NCBI GenBank assembly: GCA_903840435.1 | Contig: CAIMFV010000035.1 | Coordinates: 1-64,000, forward strand | Direction of reading: 5' to 3' | Length of the DNA: 64,000 bases | DNA from: an uncultured Caulobacterales bacterium | GTDB taxonomy: Bacteria; Pseudomonadota; Alphaproteobacteria; Caulobacterales; Caulobacteraceae | In this document: in pieces, positions 19,128-28,265 of the stretch | Layout: every line of letters starts with the position of its first letter | Position numbering within the stretch: the stretch's first letter is position 1 | Notes under the pieces: generated by a model | What the model was told of the DNA's origin: nothing | The model's input: only the letters and a program-made list of their open reading frames with translations | Databases searched by the model: none | Position numbers and translations under genes: made by a program

Positions 19128-20231
19128 ATGACAGGCGCTCTCAAACAGCCTCGCCCCAAGGCGGGTATCCTGGATATCTCGCCCTATGTCGGCGGCAAGG
19201 CCAAGGTCGATGGCTTTGCAAACCCGGTGAAACTTTCGTCTAACGAGAACTGTCTGGGCTGCTCAGAGGCGGCGCGCGCGGCCTTTCTTGAAACTGCGGC
19301 CAGCCTGCACCTCTATCCGGATGGGCATTGCGGGCTCTTGCGCCAGGAGATTTCTGAGGACCTGAATCTCGACCCGCATCGGCTGATTTTCACGGCAGGA
19401 TCGGATGAAATTTTTGATCTGTTGGCCCAAGCCTATCTGGAGCCGGGCGACAACGCTGTCCAAGGCCAATATGGCTTTCTGTCCTACCGCATTGCCGTGC
19501 GCGCCGCCCAAGGCGAGGTGCGGTTCGCGCCAGAACCCAATCGCTGCGTTGATATTGACCTGATCCTGGCAGAGGTTGATGACCGCACACGGCTGGTCTT
19601 TATCGCCAATCCCGCCAACCCAACGGGCGCTTGGCTAAAGGGCGACGACATAGCCCGCCTGCACGCCGAATTGCCGCCCGAGGTCATTCTCGTGCTCGAC
19701 GGTGCCTATGCAGAGTTCTGCGACGACCCAGACTATCGCGACGGCCTTGACCTTGCCCGCAATGCCGAAAATATCGTCGTCACCAAAACCTTTTCTAAAA
19801 TCCATGGTCTGGCGGCGCTGCGGGTCGGATGGGCCTTTGCACCACGGGCGGTTGTCGATGCGCTTGACCGCATTCGAAGCCCCTTCAACGTCAATGCGCC
19901 CGCCCAGGCTGCCGCGCTGGCGGCCTATCGCGATCACGACTTTGTCGAAAAGTCCAAAGCCCACGCCCGTACCTGGCGTCTGTGGCTGGCCCAGCAGCTC
20001 GGCGGCCTTGGTTTGGAAGCGCAGCCCTCGGCCGCCAACTTTGTCCTGGTCCGCTTTCCAGACACACCCGGCCGCACCGCGGCTGAGGCCGAGGCCCGTC
20101 TGGCTAGCCAGGGCTTTCTGGTGCGCGGACTGGCGGGCTATGGACTGCCCGATAGCCTACGCATCACGCTTGGCCTGGAAGCGGAAAACCGCGCGCTCAT
20201 CGATCATTTGAGCCAGTTTATGAGGGGCTGA
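19128..20231 (+). CDS. hisC: histidinol-phosphate / aromatic aminotransferase
   Basis: Class I/II PLP aminotransferase of the HisC group; it can act in histidine synthesis and often also on aromatic keto acids. The 367-residue product shows K-L-S-S-N-E-N near the start, N-P-A-N-P-T-G, L-D-G-A-Y-A-E-F and the PLP lysine in T-K-T-F-S-K-I-H-G-L-A-A-L-R-V-G. ATG at 19128 gives the usual start near the conserved N-terminus; 19077 is an alternative. It follows the chorismate-mutase-like gene, suggesting aromatic amino acid work. A tyrC-type dehydrogenase, often next in alphaproteobacteria, is missing. Its 3' end overlaps the convergent neighbour by 14 bp. Confidence 0.93.
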   Translation: MTGALKQPRPKAGILDISPYVGGKAKVDGFANPVKLSSNENCLGCSEAARAAFLETAASLHLYPDGHCGLLRQEISEDLNLDPHRLIFTAGSDEIFDLLAQAYLEPGDNAVQGQYGFLSYRIAVRAAQGEVRFAPEPNRCVDIDLILAEVDDRTRLVFIANPANPTGAWLKGDDIARLHAELPPEVILVLDGAYAEFCDDPDYRDGLDLARNAENIVVTKTFSKIHGLAALRVGWAFAPRAVVDALDRIRSPFNVNAPAQAAALAAYRDHDFVEKSKAHARTWRLWLAQQLGGLGLEAQPSAANFVLVRFPDTPGRTAAEAEARLASQGFLVRGLAGYGLPDSLRITLGLEAENRALIDHLSQFMRG

Positions 20232-21333
20232 AGCCTGCCATCAAACTGTCGAAATCGAGAATGAGGTCGGAATACTCTTTGAGCGGCATCCGACTAGAGA
20301 TTTGGTTGTCTTGACGATAGCGCCAAAACTGTAACACGTGTTGCAGCACGCCGACCAATTCGCCAAGCTCGATAAATAAGATTGGCGAGCTCAACAGGAA
20401 ATGGCGGAAGGCCATCGGATTTTGCGCCTTCACCATCACGGCATAGGCCTCATCATAACCGGCAATAAAGGTGTGAGCCCTGGCAAGCACACTGAGGAGG
20501 TTGCGACTTAAACGCTTGCGCGCCGTATCGAGCGGCCCAAAGCGGTTCTCGCCATCCCGAGAGACCGGCATGCCCGCTTGCATTTCCCGAATGGCCATAG
20601 AGATTTCGGCCTCTAATGGCGCACAAATCCATTTGTAATAGAGAAAACCCTTCCAGCCGAACATGCCTTCGCTGAACTCTTCCAGGCCCATGCGCAACAT
20701 CCGCCGCAAGGGCTCGGTGGCGTCGCCATAGTCGCCGGACAACAAGACCCTAATCATCCTTGCCGGTTCCGGCTTTTCGCGAACCCCGCGCAAGGCAAGC
20801 TCGACGAGCTCCGAGATTTCGGCGCTGACAAAGCTTTCCATCTTGGCGATTTCAGCCTCGCCAAGATTGAAGTACCGATGATCGGGTCGCACCTCGAGCC
20901 GCCCCAGTCTCTCCCGCAGTAGGAAGGGATCGAAGGATGGCAGGCCATCAAGCGCCTTCAGCACACGAAGATCGCTTGGCCGGTTGTTGAGATGGACGCC
21001 GGTCACCTGACTGAGGCTGTCCATCCAATCGGTTTCCCCGAGAAATAGATAGCGGCCACCGACGCGCAGGTCGTCGGGATCAATCGGCAGAACCAATTTG
21101 GTGGCAATGGAACGACCATCGCCGAATACCCGTGACTCTTCCTGACGCAGGCGATGTTTGACAATGAAACACCGGTTCAGTCCTGCTGTTGCGAAGAGCG
21201 GCGCGGTGATGGGCGCATCGGCAGATTCCGCCGTTTCCCAAACCCGCAGCAGATTGAGCACTCGCGAAGTCGACGCGCCGCTATGTAATCGGGTCAAGCT
21301 CCGAACATCGGCATTAGCGAGCATTCGCGACAT
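20218..21333 (-). CDS. uncharacterised protein, paralogue A of the 59.3-60.4 kb protein
   Basis: A 371-residue protein of unknown function with a clear paralogue at 59298-60419. Shared blocks include R-V-L-N-L-L near the N-terminus, V-K-H-R-L-R, T-K-(L/I)-(V/L)-(L/F)-P-I-D, D-L-R-(V/I)-L-K, D-P-F-L-L-R-E and E-G-(M/V)-F-(G/C)-W-K-(G/A)-F-L-Y-Y-K-W, then F-R-(H/E)-F-L-L in the C-terminal third. No signal peptide, membrane helix or known catalytic motif is seen. ATG at 21333 (M-S-R-M-L-A-N) is preferred because it matches the paralogue's start and has GAGG upstream; 21375 and 21324 are possible. It looks like a soluble cytoplasmic protein. Confidence 0.8.
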   Translation of the reverse strand: MSRMLANADVRSLTRLHSGASTSRVLNLLRVWETAESADAPITAPLFATAGLNRCFIVKHRLRQEESRVFGDGRSIATKLVLPIDPDDLRVGGRYLFLGETDWMDSLSQVTGVHLNNRPSDLRVLKALDGLPSFDPFLLRERLGRLEVRPDHRYFNLGEAEIAKMESFVSAEISELVELALRGVREKPEPARMIRVLLSGDYGDATEPLRRMLRMGLEEFSEGMFGWKGFLYYKWICAPLEAEISMAIREMQAGMPVSRDGENRFGPLDTARKRLSRNLLSVLARAHTFIAGYDEAYAVMVKAQNPMAFRHFLLSSPILFIELGELVGVLQHVLQFWRYRQDNQISSRMPLKEYSDLILDFDSLMAGFSPS

Positions 21334-21487
21334 TGAGGATCCGGCCTCTACGCCTCTGCAGTATTGAGAGGACAAGGCCTTAGCTTTAAGCCTGTGGACT
21401 TAAAATTTTGAAAATTTGCCCAACACTTAAATTCGGTGGGAATTTGAAGATTAACTGCATTTTTTAAGGCGACTTTACCAGAACGAC

Positions 21488-21883
21488 CTAGCTTCCCTCA
21501 GCTTCATCGTCAGGGGCTCGCTTTAACAAGGCGTCTGCCATGGCGTCGAACAGGCTTTGCATGCCAATCGGCTTCATCACCAAACCGTCGGCCCCGCTTT
21601 GGATGCAGGTATCGAATAATCCAGGCGATGCATCTGCGGTAACCACAACGATCGGAATGTTTGCCTTGCCATCGCTTCGGGCGCGAATCTCGCGGATGGC
21701 TGTCAGGCCGTCCATTCCCGGCATGCGCAGGTCCATCAAAATGATGTCATAATCCGCCGCCTCAATCATTTTCAGACCAAGAACCGCATCCTCAGCCTCG
21801 CTCATCTCGCAGCCCCCAACTTCGAGCATGTTGCGGACGATAACCCTGTTCATCGGGTTGTCTTCGACAAACAGAACATTCAT
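21488..21883 (-). CDS. single-domain response regulator (receiver only)
   Basis: A 131-residue receiver protein with no output domain. The acidic pocket is in F-V-E-D-N-P, the phospho-acceptor is Asp51 in I-I-L-M-D-L-R-M-P-G-M-D-G, the switch Thr is in V-V-V-T-A-D-A, and the conserved lysine is in V-M-K-P-I-G. Its ATG overlaps the stop of the upstream hybrid kinase by four bases, so it is almost certainly the kinase's partner. With no DNA-binding domain it should act through protein contacts or pass phosphate onward. Confidence 0.93.
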   Translation of the reverse strand: MNVLFVEDNPMNRVIVRNMLEVGGCEMSEAEDAVLGLKMIEAADYDIILMDLRMPGMDGLTAIREIRARSDGKANIPIVVVTADASPGLFDTCIQSGADGLVMKPIGMQSLFDAMADALLKRAPDDEAEGS

Positions 21884-24408
21884 GGCGCTGCGCCCGCGCG
21901 ATCGGCGTCCGAGCTTACGCCGGTGGCAGCCAGCTTGGCCGTGTCTGGTCCACGGCGCTCAAGCAGCACCGAGGTCAGGCGGGCGGGTTGCAACGGTTTG
22001 ACCAAAAAGGCGTCCGCGCCGGCGGCCAAAATTCGGGTCTCAAATTCCTGAGCGGCTTTGGCGCCCAGCACAATCACGGGCAGGCTAGCGCTCATCGTCC
22101 CGATACGGGCCAAAGCCGTCTCGACATCTTGATCGCCCCCCAAGGCCGCCCAATCACAGACAATGCGGTCGAAGCCCGACTCGCGTATGAGGTCAGACGA
22201 TGCTGCGTAATCTGCTGCAAAATCAAGTCGTTTCGCCACTTTTCCAACCATAGCGCGTAAGAAACTCTGCGCCATGGGATTGGGTTCAAGCGCGAGGATG
22301 CGCAAGTCTTCCAGCCGTTCAGCCACGCCGACCAAGGGACCGCTTGAGATCTGTTGCCGCGGCCCATCTTCAACGACCTGCAGTGGCAGTTGAAAGGTGA
22401 AGGTCGAGCCGACGCCAAGCGCGCTCTCCAAACGAATGGTGCCTCCCATGGCGTCAGCGATGCGCCGACAGATGGCAAGGCCCAAACCTGCGCCACCAAA
22501 CCGTCGCGACAGCCCGACTTCAACCTGGGTGAAGGACTCAAAAATCAGCGCCTGGTCCTTGGGCGCAACGCCAATGCCGCTGTCACGCACCGAAAAGGTC
22601 AAGGTCCCGCTTTCGACAGCGCCCACCACCTCAATCTCGACAAAACCTGTCTCAGTAAACTTGATGGCATTGGACACGAGATTGAGGATCACCTGACGTA
22701 AGCGATCAGCGTCTTCAAAAATCCTTTGCGGCGCACGCTCCAGCGACACCCTGAGGCTCAACCCCTTAGACTGCGCGTGATCTTGCCAATTGGCCACCGC
22801 ATCGCGCACCACCGCGTGCAGGTCGATGACGCTGCGTTTGACCGTAACCTGCCCATTCTCGGCCTTGGCGAGATCAAGCAGGTCGTCGACCATGGCGCGC
22901 ATAGCCCGGCCCGCGCCCATGACCACATCCAACCGATCCCGGGTCGAGGCTGGCAAGGCACTATCGGCAAGCAGCACCTCGGTCATGCCCAAAATGCCGT
23001 TGAGCGGCGTGCGAATTTCGTGGCTGGTTGAGGCGAGGAAGTCGGTCTTGGCCTTTAACGCCTTACCAAGTTCGGCATTGCTCGCCTCGAGCTCTTTGTT
23101 CATCGCCCGCACTTCGTTGCGGCTGCGACGCATGGAGAAAAAGCCGAAAGTGACCAGGGCCAAGACCACGGTCGCGGCGGCACCCAGCACCAAGCTGATG
23201 GCGAGACGCATCTGCTCTTGTGACCTGGCGAGCTGGGCGGTCTTTTGCAATTCTTCCGCCCGCAGCCGGGCGATTTTTAAGTCTTGATTGGCAAAATCAA
23301 ATTGCGCACTCATCAAGGCCGCATTGGTCGAGGCGGCAAGATCGCGGGCAGCGTCCTCTAACCGCTTGACAGCCTTCAGGTGCAGCATGGCCAAATGGTC
23401 TTGGCCAAGGCGGGTATAGATATCGACGGCGGCCCGATGAAAATCGAGATAGGCAGGCCCTGAGGTGGCGAGATCAACGCCTTTGAAGGCCTCCTCGATC
23501 AGCGGCCGAGCCCGCGCAGCATCGCCTCGCTTTAAGCTGACCACCGCCAACTCACCAATCAAATAGGGCCTCTCTTCAGCGGCCTCAGCTTGAGAGGTGA
23601 GCTTTAGGGCACGGGAAACGGTCGTCTCTGCATCAGAAAATCTACCCAAAGCCACCAAGCAAGAGGCGATATTGTTTAGTATCTGCGCTTGAAGAAAGGG
23701 ACTTTGGAGATTCCTTGCAACCTCATACGCCTTTTCAAATTCTAGTACGGCATCTCCAAATCGCCCCATACCCTTGTAGCCAAGAGCAAGATTGTTATGC
23801 GTTGAAATATTTAGCGAAAGGTCATTTGGGAATATTTCGTTCGATTCTCGATAATATTTAAATTCATGCTCATAGTCCCGCGCCGCCAAGTATATTGACC
23901 CAATCCGTTGTAGGGCCATGGCCTGGGAACGCGGGAGATTAATCTTTCGGAAAATTTGAAAGGCAGTGTGAAAGTCGCTCAAGGCTTCTTGGACCCGACC
24001 CACAGCGGCTAGAACGCTTCCGGAAGCGATATTGATGTCGCCCTCCAACTTCGTGTCGCGCGCATAAGCATGCGCGTCGGAAGTTGCCTGAGCGACAAAA
24101 GAAGCTGCCTTCGCGTCTTCGTTCAGTCGATTCAGCGCGGCGATTTCCAACCAGCGCGTCGCGAGCACATCCAATGGACGTGCCGCCTGTCCGCTCATCC
24201 GACTGACAACATCTCGCGCACGACGGGCGTGATCCAATGCAGACTTTGGATCGTTGAGCATTGCTTGCTTCGCCTGGGACATCTCAACTTCAAAAGTCGG
24301 CACGTCCGCCGCGGTAGCGCGGGAATCATGGAGAAGTAGGGCGGCGGCAATAGCGAATGCGCATTCGCTCGAACGCTTGCTATTTCTTTTGCTTCTGAAC
24401 CCGGACAT
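21880..24408 (-). CDS. hybrid sensor histidine kinase with exported TPR sensor domain
   Basis: An 842-residue kinase. Order of parts: signal-like N-terminus ending near A-T-A-A; an all-helical TPR region to about residue 385; one membrane helix at about 399-425 (L-V-L-G-A-A-A-T-V-V-L-A-L-V); a coiled linker; HisKA with S-H-E-I-R-T-P-L-N-G (His463); HATPase with N-L-V-S-N-A-I-K-F, D-S-G-I-G-V and G-G-A-G-L-G-L-A-I; and a C-terminal receiver with C-D-W-A-A-L and L-V-K-P. The receiver's first acidic pair reads L-E-P, so it may be weak. The topology places the TPR sensor outside the inner membrane. ATG at 24408 is chosen for the signal peptide; 24432 is possible. It is transcribed with the receiver gene and divergent from the YGNINAW peptide gene. 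Confidence 0.9.
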   Translation of the reverse strand: MSGFRSKRNSKRSSECAFAIAAALLLHDSRATAADVPTFEVEMSQAKQAMLNDPKSALDHARRARDVVSRMSGQAARPLDVLATRWLEIAALNRLNEDAKAASFVAQATSDAHAYARDTKLEGDINIASGSVLAAVGRVQEALSDFHTAFQIFRKINLPRSQAMALQRIGSIYLAARDYEHEFKYYRESNEIFPNDLSLNISTHNNLALGYKGMGRFGDAVLEFEKAYEVARNLQSPFLQAQILNNIASCLVALGRFSDAETTVSRALKLTSQAEAAEERPYLIGELAVVSLKRGDAARARPLIEEAFKGVDLATSGPAYLDFHRAAVDIYTRLGQDHLAMLHLKAVKRLEDAARDLAASTNAALMSAQFDFANQDLKIARLRAEELQKTAQLARSQEQMRLAISLVLGAAATVVLALVTFGFFSMRRSRNEVRAMNKELEASNAELGKALKAKTDFLASTSHEIRTPLNGILGMTEVLLADSALPASTRDRLDVVMGAGRAMRAMVDDLLDLAKAENGQVTVKRSVIDLHAVVRDAVANWQDHAQSKGLSLRVSLERAPQRIFEDADRLRQVILNLVSNAIKFTETGFVEIEVVGAVESGTLTFSVRDSGIGVAPKDQALIFESFTQVEVGLSRRFGGAGLGLAICRRIADAMGGTIRLESALGVGSTFTFQLPLQVVEDGPRQQISSGPLVGVAERLEDLRILALEPNPMAQSFLRAMVGKVAKRLDFAADYAASSDLIRESGFDRIVCDWAALGGDQDVETALARIGTMSASLPVIVLGAKAAQEFETRILAAGADAFLVKPLQPARLTSVLLERRGPDTAKLAATGVSSDADRAGAAP

Positions 24409-24458
24409 GTCACCGCCTATCCATGCCAACATAATAGGCTCACCCGGCTAATTCGGGG

Positions 24459-24830: not shown

Positions 24831-24894
24831 ACATTGCGTTCAGGAGAGGGAGCGGACGCATAACCTTCTCCCCGCCCAACCAATGGAGAAAGCC

Positions 24895-24999
24895 ATGTCA
24901 GTTCGTTCCAAAATGTTCGCTATTGCTACCGCCGCTATGGGCGTCGCGCTTGCAGTTGCTTCAGCCGCCCAAGCGTATGGCAACATCAACGCCTGGTAA
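24895..24999 (+). CDS. 34-residue secreted-peptide precursor ending in YGNINAW
   Basis: Not recognised as any named gene. ATG at 24895 follows GGAGAAAGCC, a good ribosome binding site at six-base spacing. The product has a basic start (M-S-V-R-S-K), a hydrophobic core (F-A-I-A-T-A-A-M-G-V-A-L-A-V) and a type I cleavage site S-A-A-Q-A. Only Y-G-N-I-N-A-W and TAA follow. Cleavage would release a heptapeptide into the periplasm. The same heptad occurs five times in tandem near the N-terminus of the adjacent convergent subtilase autotransporter. Two perfect CtrA-type boxes lie upstream and a strong terminator downstream, so this looks like a complete small transcription unit. Role unknown; a signal, protease ligand or decoy are all possible. 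Confidence 0.75.
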   Translation: MSVRSKMFAIATAAMGVALAVASAAQAYGNINAW

Positions 25000-25073
25000 G
25001 CTTCGTTTTCGAACAGAAGCGGGTTCGTAGGCGATTTTTAAACCTGCAGCACCCAGTGAAGCTTGAAAACATG

Positions 25074-25106
25074 AAAGGCCGCTCGTCACTGACGAGCGGC
25101 CTTTTT
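25074..25106 (+). terminator. strong Rho-independent terminator after the peptide gene
   Basis: An 11-bp perfect stem GGCCGCTCGTC / GACGAGCGGCC (25077-25087 with 25091-25101), extended by AAA/TTT, has a 3-base loop and is followed by TTTTT on the plus strand. It lies about 75 bp after the peptide stop and 30 bp from the convergent autotransporter stop. Confidence 0.92.
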
Positions 25107-25136
25107 AGTTATGTCGCAAACAGAGGGACTTGCGGT

Positions 25137-28100
25137 TTAGAAGACTTGGCGGATTTTCCCGCCGACAAGGTAATCCATGGGCTTGCCGACGGAAGCATCA
25201 TAGGCGTCGGTTCCGGCGCGCATATAGACTGACACCTCGGTTCCTGATCGGGGAAGTACCCGCCCATAAAGTAACTCGGCTGAAACTGGGGTCCGTTCGG
25301 CGGCCGGATTGATGGCCTCATGAATAACACCCAGTTGACCCGTCTGGCGATCAATGACGCCATAGGTGTCGTATCCAAGCTGGCCGGCGCTAACTTGTAA
25401 TTCTTGGCTGACGGAGATGCGCAACCGATCAGATTTGGCAAACAGGCCAAACTTCGACAAGGCAACCTCACCAGACGAGCTTGCAAGGCCAGACCCCAGG
25501 GTATGCAAGCCTTGAGCGCCGTCGGTCTTGCTGTTGGCAACCATGCCCGTGGCGCTTAGGCTCATATTCAAGGGCAGGTTCAGATCAAAACCAAGGCTTG
25601 CCCCCGTCGTGACCGATCCGCGCCCAAGATCAGAAGCGTTGGTCGATTGGACACCCAAAAGGGCCGAATTTTCATTCAGTCGGGTCAATCCGACATGCAG
25701 GGTCAGATTGCGGTTCGCCGCAATATCAACACCGGCATGCTCGGCGCTCGCCTCATACAGCGTAGCACTATAGCTGGTTGACGGATCGGTCAGGCCAAAC
25801 ACGGTCGGATCCCGCAGGTCACGTCTTTGGGTCATGCCGACATTGAGGCTGACGCCCTTTACCACTTCCTGACGCAGGTCCAGATAGGCGCCGCCCGATG
25901 CAAGTCCTAAGAGCGGATTGACGCCCCCTTGGCTGACCTGGTAGTCAGTCGCCTGATCAAGACCGGGCTGGCTGGTCAAGGCTTGTGCGCCAGACCCAAC
26001 GCCGAACCGCAGCGCGGTTTTGGCGCCGATCAAGGCAAGTTCGGTCTTATAGGGCAAGGCCGACTGGGTGAAGCCGAGTTGCTCGGTGTTCGGTGCCATG
26101 GACATGCGCAATTGCATGCCGCCAGCCCGCCCAACCGGAACGCTCGATTGAATGAAGCCGGTCATCGAATTTTCAACCGGCGAAGCGTCGGCAAATCCCG
26201 ATCCGCTCTTCACCCAAGACTGCAACGCCACACCAAGATAGCTCTGGAACTGCTGCTGTCCGCCTTTGGAGCCAACCGTTTGTCCAACCAGATTGGAGGA
26301 CAGTGGAATTTGGAAGTCACGGGTGGTCGAGCCGACCTTTTCCAAGGCCACATAATAAAGGTTTTGTGAATTCCAGGTGGACTGGGTCCCAGCAATGCCA
26401 GAGGTCATAACGCTGGTGGCACCAACCGCCTGTTGTGGTGTGCCATTGACCACCGGGGTCAAGGTAACATTGGCCCAGTTCAACGGCGATTGCGACGCTT
26501 GGATATTGAGTTCGCCAACGCCATAGAGGGGGTCCGCGCCAGGTTTGGACCCGAGCCGGGTGGCTGACTGCAAGATAATGTTGGCGGTGTCAGTCGGGTC
26601 TTTGGCGAGCCAAGGCCAGCGGGCTTGCAGCAAGCCGACCGCTCCTGAGACCAAGGGTGCTGCCAGCGACGTGCCAGTTTGCCGCGAAATATTGCCCGAA
26701 TTATCCGAAATCAGCACCAATTCGCCTGGGGCGACGATAAACCGACTGGCAAGCGTTGCAGTGCAGGCGCCCGCCGCAGCTGTCGTTGCCGTCAAGCACG
26801 CGGTTCCCGGTGTGTTGGAGAAGTTCGAAATCGTTCCTTGAGCGTTCACAGACCCCACAATAATCAAGGTGGGATTGGTAGCGAAGTTCCAGGGCACATT
26901 GGCCGACTGGCTTATGCCATCATTCCCAGCCGCAACAACAAGAATGGTGTTGTGGGCCTGCCCTCCCGCCAAGGCGGCGTTGCCGGAGAAAACCGTGTTC
27001 CAGCCAGGATTTAGGGTCCAACCCGGCACCCCGAGCGACGCATTGATCACAGTCGCACCAGGGTCGGTATGCCCCCATTCCGACTGAGAAATCGTCGGGG
27101 TCGTGAGGGCTGCTATTCCCGACGCGACGTCCGTCCAGTTGGTTGTGTTGGTCGCATCATAAGGGTCGTACACCACAACATGGGCCGAACGCCTGGGCAT
27201 GACACCCATAATGCCCGAACCGTCGACCGACCCCGCGATTAAGCCTTCGACCGCAGCCCCGTGGCCTGTGCCAAATTGATCAGAACCCAATTCAACAATC
27301 CTACCCTTGGGATTCGCCGTCCCATTGGTTGCGGTAAAATCGAGCATGCCGACAGTGATGGGCGTCTGGTTTTCGCCGACACTGGCGGCAATGGCTGCAA
27401 GCGCCGGACTCCAATTGGCAGAGCCCATCCACCAGTCCACATGACCGGTGCCGGAATAGGACATCAACTGGTCATAGAAGTTGACGAAGAACATCGCCTG
27501 ATTGGTTTGCGAAACACCAGACAAGCTGGTCGGGTCAATGGTGCCCGCCGCTGTATAGCTGACACCGGCATTGGTCAGGAGCGATTTAGCGATCCCTGAA
27601 ACCGTTGTCGACGCGGCAGCCTGTCCGTTTTGATATTCGCCGCTCCCCCAATAGGCACTTTCAGGATGTTTCACCGCCTTGCCCCAAAAACTGTCCGCGT
27701 TGGAGACAAGGGACTGCAATTGAGAGGCGATCGCTTGGTAATCTGTGGCAGTTTTTGCGGTCGACCACGCGCTCATAATCGACGAATAGCTGGTGAACTC
27801 ACCCTGCCAAAACGGTTGGATCGCTGAATATTTTACATAGTAACTCGGATTGTTCACATACGGGTTTTTGGCACCCCAAAACGGATCATAGCCACTTGGG
27901 TTGTAAAGCCCATAGCCTGGAGACGTTGTAGCCTGGGGCGCAAACGGATTAGGACCGGTCCCGACCCAAGGTGCAGCTACAGGCGCGCCTGCCGTCCCGC
28001 CAGACCAAGCATTGATATTGCCGTACCAGGCATTAATATTACCGTACCACGCATTGATATTGCCATACCACGCGTTGATATTACCGTACCATGCGTTGAT

Positions 28101-28265
28101 ATTACCATAGAGCGGCGACACCACCACCGGAGGCGGCGTTTGGGGGGCTGGCGGCGTTGGCGCCGTTTGGGCCTGCGCCGAACCTGCAACCAGCGCAGCG
28201 GCAGAACAAGAGACCAGGGCAGCGCGACGCGCCCATGCGACCAAGACCTTACGCGATTCAACCAT
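25137..28265 (-). CDS. S8 (subtilisin-like) serine protease autotransporter with YGNINAW tandem repeats
   Basis: A 1042-residue secreted protease. A signal peptide ends G-S-A-Q-A (cleavage after residue 32); a Pro-rich stretch leads into five exact Y-G-N-I-N-A-W repeats (residues 53-87). Next comes a Tyr/Trp-rich region, then the subtilase domain with Asp309 (G-M-L-D-F), His335 (G-T-G-H-G-A-A-V-E-G), Asn448 (A-A-G-N-D-G) and Ser533 (G-T-S-L-A-A-P). The last 250 or so residues look like an autotransporter beta-barrel, ending in a hydrophobic-aromatic C-terminus (R-Q-V-F). ATG at 28265 is taken; 28298 is a TTG. Convergent with the heptapeptide gene across a shared terminator. The barrel should thread the protease to the cell surface. 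Substrate unknown. Confidence 0.93.
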   Translation of the reverse strand: MVESRKVLVAWARRAALVSCSAAALVAGSAQAQTAPTPPAPQTPPPVVVSPLYGNINAWYGNINAWYGNINAWYGNINAWYGNINAWSGGTAGAPVAAPWVGTGPNPFAPQATTSPGYGLYNPSGYDPFWGAKNPYVNNPSYYVKYSAIQPFWQGEFTSYSSIMSAWSTAKTATDYQAIASQLQSLVSNADSFWGKAVKHPESAYWGSGEYQNGQAAASTTVSGIAKSLLTNAGVSYTAAGTIDPTSLSGVSQTNQAMFFVNFYDQLMSYSGTGHVDWWMGSANWSPALAAIAASVGENQTPITVGMLDFTATNGTANPKGRIVELGSDQFGTGHGAAVEGLIAGSVDGSGIMGVMPRRSAHVVVYDPYDATNTTNWTDVASGIAALTTPTISQSEWGHTDPGATVINASLGVPGWTLNPGWNTVFSGNAALAGGQAHNTILVVAAGNDGISQSANVPWNFATNPTLIIVGSVNAQGTISNFSNTPGTACLTATTAAAGACTATLASRFIVAPGELVLISDNSGNISRQTGTSLAAPLVSGAVGLLQARWPWLAKDPTDTANIILQSATRLGSKPGADPLYGVGELNIQASQSPLNWANVTLTPVVNGTPQQAVGATSVMTSGIAGTQSTWNSQNLYYVALEKVGSTTRDFQIPLSSNLVGQTVGSKGGQQQFQSYLGVALQSWVKSGSGFADASPVENSMTGFIQSSVPVGRAGGMQLRMSMAPNTEQLGFTQSALPYKTELALIGAKTALRFGVGSGAQALTSQPGLDQATDYQVSQGGVNPLLGLASGGAYLDLRQEVVKGVSLNVGMTQRRDLRDPTVFGLTDPSTSYSATLYEASAEHAGVDIAANRNLTLHVGLTRLNENSALLGVQSTNASDLGRGSVTTGASLGFDLNLPLNMSLSATGMVANSKTDGAQGLHTLGSGLASSSGEVALSKFGLFAKSDRLRISVSQELQVSAGQLGYDTYGVIDRQTGQLGVIHEAINPAAERTPVSAELLYGRVLPRSGTEVSVYMRAGTDAYDASVGKPMDYLVGGKIRQVF
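28005..28109 (-). repeat. five 21-bp tandem repeats encoding YGNINAW
   Basis: Five head-to-tail 21-bp units inside the autotransporter gene. Every unit differs from the others at silent positions (for example TAT/TAC, GGT/GGC, AAC/AAT, GCA/GCG/GCC/GCT), yet each encodes the same seven residues. This points to selection on the peptide rather than recent DNA duplication. Confidence 0.97.

Follow-up and report, generated by a model that had tools for sequence, protein, structure and literature searches.

Why would a bacterium encode, beside a protease, a 34-codon gene whose product consists of a predicted signal peptide followed by exactly one unit of that protease's own repeat? The question is raised by a 64,000-nucleotide stretch of DNA (the window; contig CAIMFV010000035.1, positions 1 to 64,000) of an uncultured Caulobacterales bacterium. 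Here, a small gene ending in the heptad YGNINAW converges on the gene of an S8 (subtilase) protease that carries YGNINAW five times (small gene on the plus strand, protease on the minus strand), and diverges from the gene of a histidine kinase with a tetratricopeptide repeat (TPR) sensor domain, located on the side opposite the protease. We consider it about an even chance that YGNINAW is a ligand of this neighboring, predicted periplasmic TPR sensor kinase, and that the product of the small gene brings a single free YGNINAW into the periplasm.

The arrangement noticed in the initial annotation, a 34-codon open reading frame (ORF) with a ribosome binding site, a predicted signal peptide and a YGNINAW end, together with five YGNINAW copies at residues 53-87 of the convergent S8 protease, was borne out by the sequence (Table 1). 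The product reads MSVRSKMFAIATAAMGVALAVASAAQA, then YGNINAW and the stop codon; it has a charged start, a hydrophobic segment with a mean hydropathy of 2.2, and the residues ASAAQA immediately before the heptad, the signal-peptide cut after AQA being a reading by the usual A-x-A pattern with no signal-peptide program behind its placement. Precursors of the RRNPP type of peptide pheromone are short, carry an export signal and hold the active peptide near the C-terminus, and, judged by sequence alone, the small-gene product would have this layout, with the heptad as its C-terminal mature peptide. Codon usage favors coding in frame 0 (+13.4 bits), compared with -11.9 and -7.7 for the other forward frames, -0.9 for the reverse, and a mean of -12.9 (maximum -3.6) for control windows in upstream intergenic DNA, scored in one frame. 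A promoter scan found no sigma-70-like promoter 5' of the small gene.

A degenerate exact search of the organism's own 3.5-Mb assembly located YGNINAW at six places, the small ORF and the five protease repeats, against ~0.0002 occurrences expected from the base composition of the window, which rules out a chance match between the two genes. The small-ORF heptad differs from each of the protease repeats by 3 to 5 bases, every one at a third codon position, and the six copies spell one protein sequence in six distinct DNA versions, as had been claimed at the outset. The possibility, also raised then, that the ORF is a decayed or truncated copy of the protease 5' end is unlikely, because the DNA likeness between the small gene and the protease region ends 1-2 bases past the heptad, the remaining matches being of 7-10 bases, and because the ORF has no Pro-x pair ahead of its heptad, whereas at least 89 of the 116 tandem-repeat homologues described below have one before their first heptad; its codon bias is also intact.

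The protease qualifies as an S8 subtilase by an S8 domain with an Asp-His-Ser triad, D309, H335 and S533 being invariant in an alignment of 60. It resembles an autotransporter in its last residue, a Phe, and in the strands predicted for residues 709-1039; no Pfam autotransporter-domain match was obtained at the 0.001 threshold, and the fold-search matches covered the S8 part only, including a subtilisin complex with Ala-Pro-Phe chloromethyl ketone. Residues 51-104, heptads included, have a predicted local distance difference test score (pLDDT) under 50 in the structure model.

Aromatic-Gly-Asn-Ile-like repeats in homologous S8 proteases, tentatively mentioned in the initial annotation, proved to be widespread: at least two tandem heptads of this kind occur in 116 of the 120 homologues among the matches listed. 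With F, W, Y, L or M permitted at position 7 by the survey pattern, Trp occupies that position in 1 of the 617 tandem heptads of those 116 homologues and in all six copies of our genome, small gene included; a 90% identical protease homologue (P0001) has F there. Thus, the small gene carries its own species' version of the heptad, W7 being nearly private to the species. The sole listed homologue with Trp7 in a tandem heptad, P0002, alternates FAAIKPW with FGDVNAM/YGDVGPQ. The last four heptad residues in homologues are mostly I/L, any residue, P/A and F, an ending compatible with subtilisin specificity, and the number of repeats reaches 9 in the listed homologues and 12, as detected, in the wider set of protease loci.

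The initial reading is partly supported: a predicted secreted precursor whose mature part would be exactly one protease repeat agrees with the sequence, but the TPR sensor kinase and receiver next door had been overlooked. Among the roles initially offered for the peptide (signal, inhibitor, decoy or assembly ligand), the evidence points to a signal, because these two genes are the conserved neighbors of the protease. The protease is present in 22 of 299 genomes of the family, all 22 of which are among the 26 whose listed kinase match covers the TPR half (kinase matches too weak for listing stand outside this count). Protease and TPR sensor genes are close neighbors in 18 of these 22 carriers, our own genome counted; they lie on separate contigs in G013 and G159, and the neighborhood is limited by the ends of small contigs in G002 and G312. 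A stand-alone receiver adjoins the kinase in most relatives of the kinase type also. Among protease and kinase homologues, 11 pairs lay on contigs of equal extent (within one base, over 10 kb; 73 and 73 such extents), compared with 0 or 1 in each of 12 shifted controls; at least one of the 11 (P0037/P0198) has a contig equal in length to that of a genome already counted.

The association extends further. In a class-wide draw the protease was found in 4 of 385 genomes, our own included, and in the genus of G107 in 17 of 101; three carriers in this genus were new, G728 and G724 with an adjacent TPR gene (that of G724 cut by the contig end) and G722, itself cut. In the genus of G466, which belongs to another family, 27 of 114 genomes carry the protease at 32 places; at 29 of the 31 places examined (G810 was left out), a TPR sensor gene follows directly downstream on the same strand, and the other two end at a contig end. 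A match to the kinase was obtained for 6 of 31 adjacent sensors in this wider set, whereas the other 25 gave none, four of these being frames of 359-429 residues confined to the TPR part; GGDEF-EAL domains were present in both non-kinase sensors scanned and in the sensor beside the G309 protease. Protease and TPR sensor genes are conserved neighbors in two bacterial families, and the TPR half of the sensor is the constant partner of the protease while the output half varies between histidine kinase and GGDEF-EAL. Two loci are elaborations of the arrangement: G126 (L082) has three tandem protease copies beside one TPR kinase and receiver, and G760 (L123) has two modules side by side, one with GRIRxF-type repeats, a TPR kinase and a receiver, the other pairing repeats of the YGNI type with a TPR sensor that gave no match to the kinase. 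The latter offers a natural test of ligand-receptor specificity.

The TPR domain likely lies in the periplasm, as predicted from the sequence, and its model resembles the Rap and NprR pheromone receptors in a fold search. Across 26 protease-sensor pairs, the correlation between heptad-profile and TPR distances was 0.70, and removing kinase, protease, linker and barrel distances left 0.58 (p 0.0002); the corresponding controls, in which the kinase or the protease was tested with TPR distance removed, gave 0.05 and 0.09, respectively, and were not significant, and in an 87-window scan the 14 best-correlated windows all fell in the TPR part. The partial correlation was 0.23 (p 0.006) in 56 pairs, 0.38 (p 0.001) in the 32 kinase-type pairs, and 0.39 (p 0.001) in 23 kinase-type pairs without the W-first, GRIRIF and P0002 cases and with protease-only controls; that of the S8 domain with the heptads was -0.24 (n=56). 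The 26-pair set excludes the G309 pair (protease frame split), L084, L092, L094 and L095 (no sensor partner on the stretch), P0004/P0217 (short sensor) and P0037/P0198 (contig equal in length to that of G014), and the 56-pair set further excludes L140 (too few heptads) and five protease places without a sensor partner; G234 entered with its open frame up to its stop only. The A helices of TPR proteins line the concave face of the superhelix, and with helices assigned from Pfam TPR positions and the model, the 40 most coupled TPR columns comprised 26 in A helices, 11 in B helices and 3 in loops, compared with 91 A and 129 B among the remaining columns (p 0.001). N213, N214, N254, Y181, W94 and H332, all on A helices, are 98-100% conserved. 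The heptads co-vary with the TPR domain beyond the effect of the protease, and the coupled columns favor the concave helices; we regard this as support for an interaction, not as proof.

Table 1. Features of the locus, with positions in the window
Feature	Position	Strand	Basis
Small gene of 34 codons, made up of a predicted signal peptide (24895-24975), YGNINAW (24976-24996) and a stop codon	24895..24999	+	sequence, codon usage
GGAG, likely ribosome binding site, 6 nt 5' of the ATG	24885..24888	+	sequence
Perfect 14-pair inverted repeat, probable terminator, between the two convergent stop codons	25074..25104	.	terminator scan, folding
Autotransporter-like S8 protease; contains five YGNINAW, the S8 domain and, toward the C-terminus, predicted strands	25137..28265	-	Pfam PF00082, structure model, fold search
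Five tandem YGNINAW, residues 53-87, in a stretch predicted disordered	28005..28109	-	sequence, structure model
S8 peptidase domain, Pfam match over residues 330-584; subtilisin fold over 273-593	26514..27278	-	Pfam, fold search
C-terminal region (residues 709-1039), for which mostly beta strands in a barrel-like arrangement are predicted	25149..26141	-	structure model
TPR hybrid histidine kinase, conserved neighbor of the protease	21880..24432	-	domain search, gene-order comparison
TPR sensor part, residues 45-395, likely periplasmic, Rap/NprR-like fold	23248..24300	-	domain search, model, fold search
Stand-alone receiver protein adjoining the kinase	21488..21883	-	domain search, gene-order comparison

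Strong folding is predicted for the inverted repeat whichever strand is read (-28.1 and -26.8 kcal/mol, z -7.7 and -6.9); only its minus strand was picked up by the terminator scan, which found 2 sites with 1.0 expected. An RNA gene was considered and rejected: the best Rfam match, to the small RNA RcsR1, had an E value of 0.06 and 22 bits against a gathering score of 60; this weak match (24983-25106, plus strand) covers the inverted repeat together with the 3' end of the small gene. On the far side of the receiver gene, 112 bases past it and on the same strand, lies a 385-residue ORF without a Pfam match (20218-21375, minus strand), which possibly belongs to the same operon.

Several observations weigh against the heptad being a TPR ligand with a dedicated gene, and one is that a homologue of the small gene was not found anywhere searched, so the case for selection on it comes from this one genome. 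A family pattern for heptad plus stop matched 13 places in 12 of the 299 family genomes, with no second true candidate; our own place alone combined an aromatic-GNI heptad with a true stop, the rest starting with Cys or Leu or reading on into TGG (Trp). In a search of 5.8 billion predicted proteins, confined to lengths of about 23-73 residues, no candidate shared three words, a plasmid search gave no match, and in 25 genomes carrying the protease or the TPR kinase the gene was found in none, with N, K, D or E allowed at position 3. A scan of the genome_contigs set for Ala plus heptad plus stop, a pattern that longer or differently cut forms would escape, gave 18 matches, 15 of them without an in-frame start codon. 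As for individual matches, L068 has a stop codon inside the motif and L075 has a TTG start and lower hydrophobicity. L067, from a Cytophagaceae metagenome-assembled genome (1982-2008, plus strand), has a hydrophobic stretch, TTG/GTG starts and an intact frame ending in FAYGNIIPF and a stop; no protease match lies within its 8 kb, and we take it as a chance match, which is not proven. In the genomes searched, no homologous small ORF was accordingly found beside related proteases or elsewhere, a result that the initial annotation had counted in advance against its own reading.

The pairing of heptads with the sensor meets similar objections. In four genomes a full-length TPR kinase stands with no heptad protease nearby (L097-L100, in G187, G196, G238 and G105), and in G639, of a third family, only one of two protease copies has a TPR neighbor; the other (L138), although an S8 protein with heptads, has no TPR sensor gene next to it, and a match to the kinase part alone lies nearby. 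The co-variation is absent in the 24 non-kinase pairs (partial 0.02, p 0.41), and in the 26-pair set, leaving out the three W-first genomes, P0002, L082 and P0109 (n=20, more controls) lowers it to 0.14, or 0.24 by ranks. In the full set the stretch right after the heptads has a partial correlation of 0.44, above the TPR value, and the barrel a small one of 0.14 (p 0.007); these are Mantel tests, which remove common ancestry only partly. The helix bias of coupled columns is marginal in the kinase subset (19 A, 12 B, p 0.052), and the 30 most conserved TPR columns listed, with 11 in A helices, 16 in B helices and 3 in loops, have no A bias. The other TPR proteins LGN and TTC7B align to the sensor model as well as or better than Rap does, and the N-terminal hydrophobic segment of the kinase is weak (mean hydropathy 1.46). 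Finally, binding, cleavage and expression of the heptad are themselves predictions from the genome.

With these points in mind, we envisage the following scenario. Signal peptidase would cut the small precursor after AQA, leaving exactly YGNINAW, whereas the protease repeats might be freed as the same heptapeptide if cleavage follows the aromatic residue at position 7 (F or W), with the S8 domain itself as a possible agent; alternatively, they may be offered while the protease N-terminus is still in the periplasm. The heptapeptide would then bind the concave face of the TPR superhelix and switch the kinase and receiver or the GGDEF-EAL output found in relatives. In this way, the signal borne by the protease would have, in the small gene, a source independent of protease secretion. 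More tentatively, and as a proposition we hold to be possible rather than probable, the locus may represent a form of Gram-negative peptide signaling whose signal, a series of tandem heptapeptides, is part of a secreted protease that excises them and signals to a periplasmic TPR receptor encoded alongside it, the output of which is exchangeable (two-component or cyclic di-GMP), a one-unit pheromone gene having split off here and revealing the exact mature ligand.

The evidence for heptad-TPR pairing would apply equally if, in the periplasm, the sensor bound heptads not yet severed from the N-terminus of the protease and so reported stalled or ongoing secretion, with the small peptide as a soluble competitor lowering the signal. 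The heptads are indeed N-terminal, the N-terminus of classical autotransporters leaves the periplasm last, and no peptide would have to return from outside. Such sensing needs no free unit, yet the small gene holds one in exact register, and as many as 9 repeats, or 12 as detected, would be superfluous for a tether; we find it unlikely. Less likely still is that the heptads form an inhibitory pro-segment in the S8 active site and that, while the protease is in the periplasm, the small peptide serves as its inhibitor or protector. This would suit the mostly Pro/Ala-Phe residues at positions 6-7, compatible with a subtilisin substrate, and the small gene's position adjoining the protease gene, but the heptads lack confident structure in the model, and their divergence tracks the TPR sensor and not the S8 domain, as the values of 0.09 (protease given TPR, not significant) and -0.24 given above indicate.

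The failure of every search to find a homologue is what would be expected if the small ORF were a functionless evolutionary accident, a recent fusion of a signal peptide with a heptad fragment. Against this stand its intact codon bias, its ribosome binding site and the terminator-like repeat, as well as the exact register, the purely synonymous differences from every repeat, and the lack of common flanking DNA beyond 1-2 bases, and we consider such an origin improbable. A ligand role for the heptad remains the reading that we carry forward.

How would a heptapeptide ligand of this kind compare with known systems? Some precursors of the Rap-Phr systems contain several pheromones; extracellular proteases mature these, and Rap receptors detect them (PMC11343458). 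The RRNPP/RRNPPA receptors of Bacillota have a TPR superhelix with a conserved peptide-binding Asn (PMC3601965, PMC11343458). The candidate system here would share with them a TPR superhelix receptor, multi-copy precursors and a short exported precursor. It would differ in that their receptors are cytoplasmic and their peptides imported, while the TPR domain here is predicted to be periplasmic; the import by oligopeptide permease used in RRNPP systems would be unnecessary for such a receptor. Nor is the sensor a cytoplasmic DNA-acting protein or phosphatase of the RRNPP kind: its TPR part is fused, behind a predicted membrane helix, to HisKA-HATPase-receiver or GGDEF-EAL domains, and the tandem copies are borne on the protease itself. 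VbrK and VxrA of Vibrio are sensor kinases with a TPR-like periplasmic domain (PMC8534201); they differ in combining TPR-like with PAS-like domains and in having a disputed beta-lactam ligand, and the available part of that account does not mention a linked heptad-bearing protease, nor, for the periplasmic TPR-like kinases it reviews, a settled ligand (PMC8534201). Fusolisin is likewise a serine protease of the S8 autotransporter class (PMC4214739), and our protease departs from the fusolisin type in its N-terminal YGN[IL] heptads, its linked TPR sensor and its lack of a Pfam autotransporter match.

A literature search aimed at the heptad-protease/TPR-sensor module, at its parts and at Phr, judged by titles and the beginnings of abstracts and with subscription journals mostly outside its scope, found no paper on the module. 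Nor did it bring up a peptide-signaling module of the kind predicted here from Gram-negative bacteria, where, to our knowledge, linear peptide signaling is rare. The gene arrangement in these genomes suggests a ligand, the precise points at which it begins and ends, and the receptor that would read it, in a module found in dozens of genomes of two families. If the proposal is true, three things are predicted to follow: the TPR domain would bind the heptapeptide, the heptapeptide would be released from the protease, and the kinase or cyclic di-GMP output would change.

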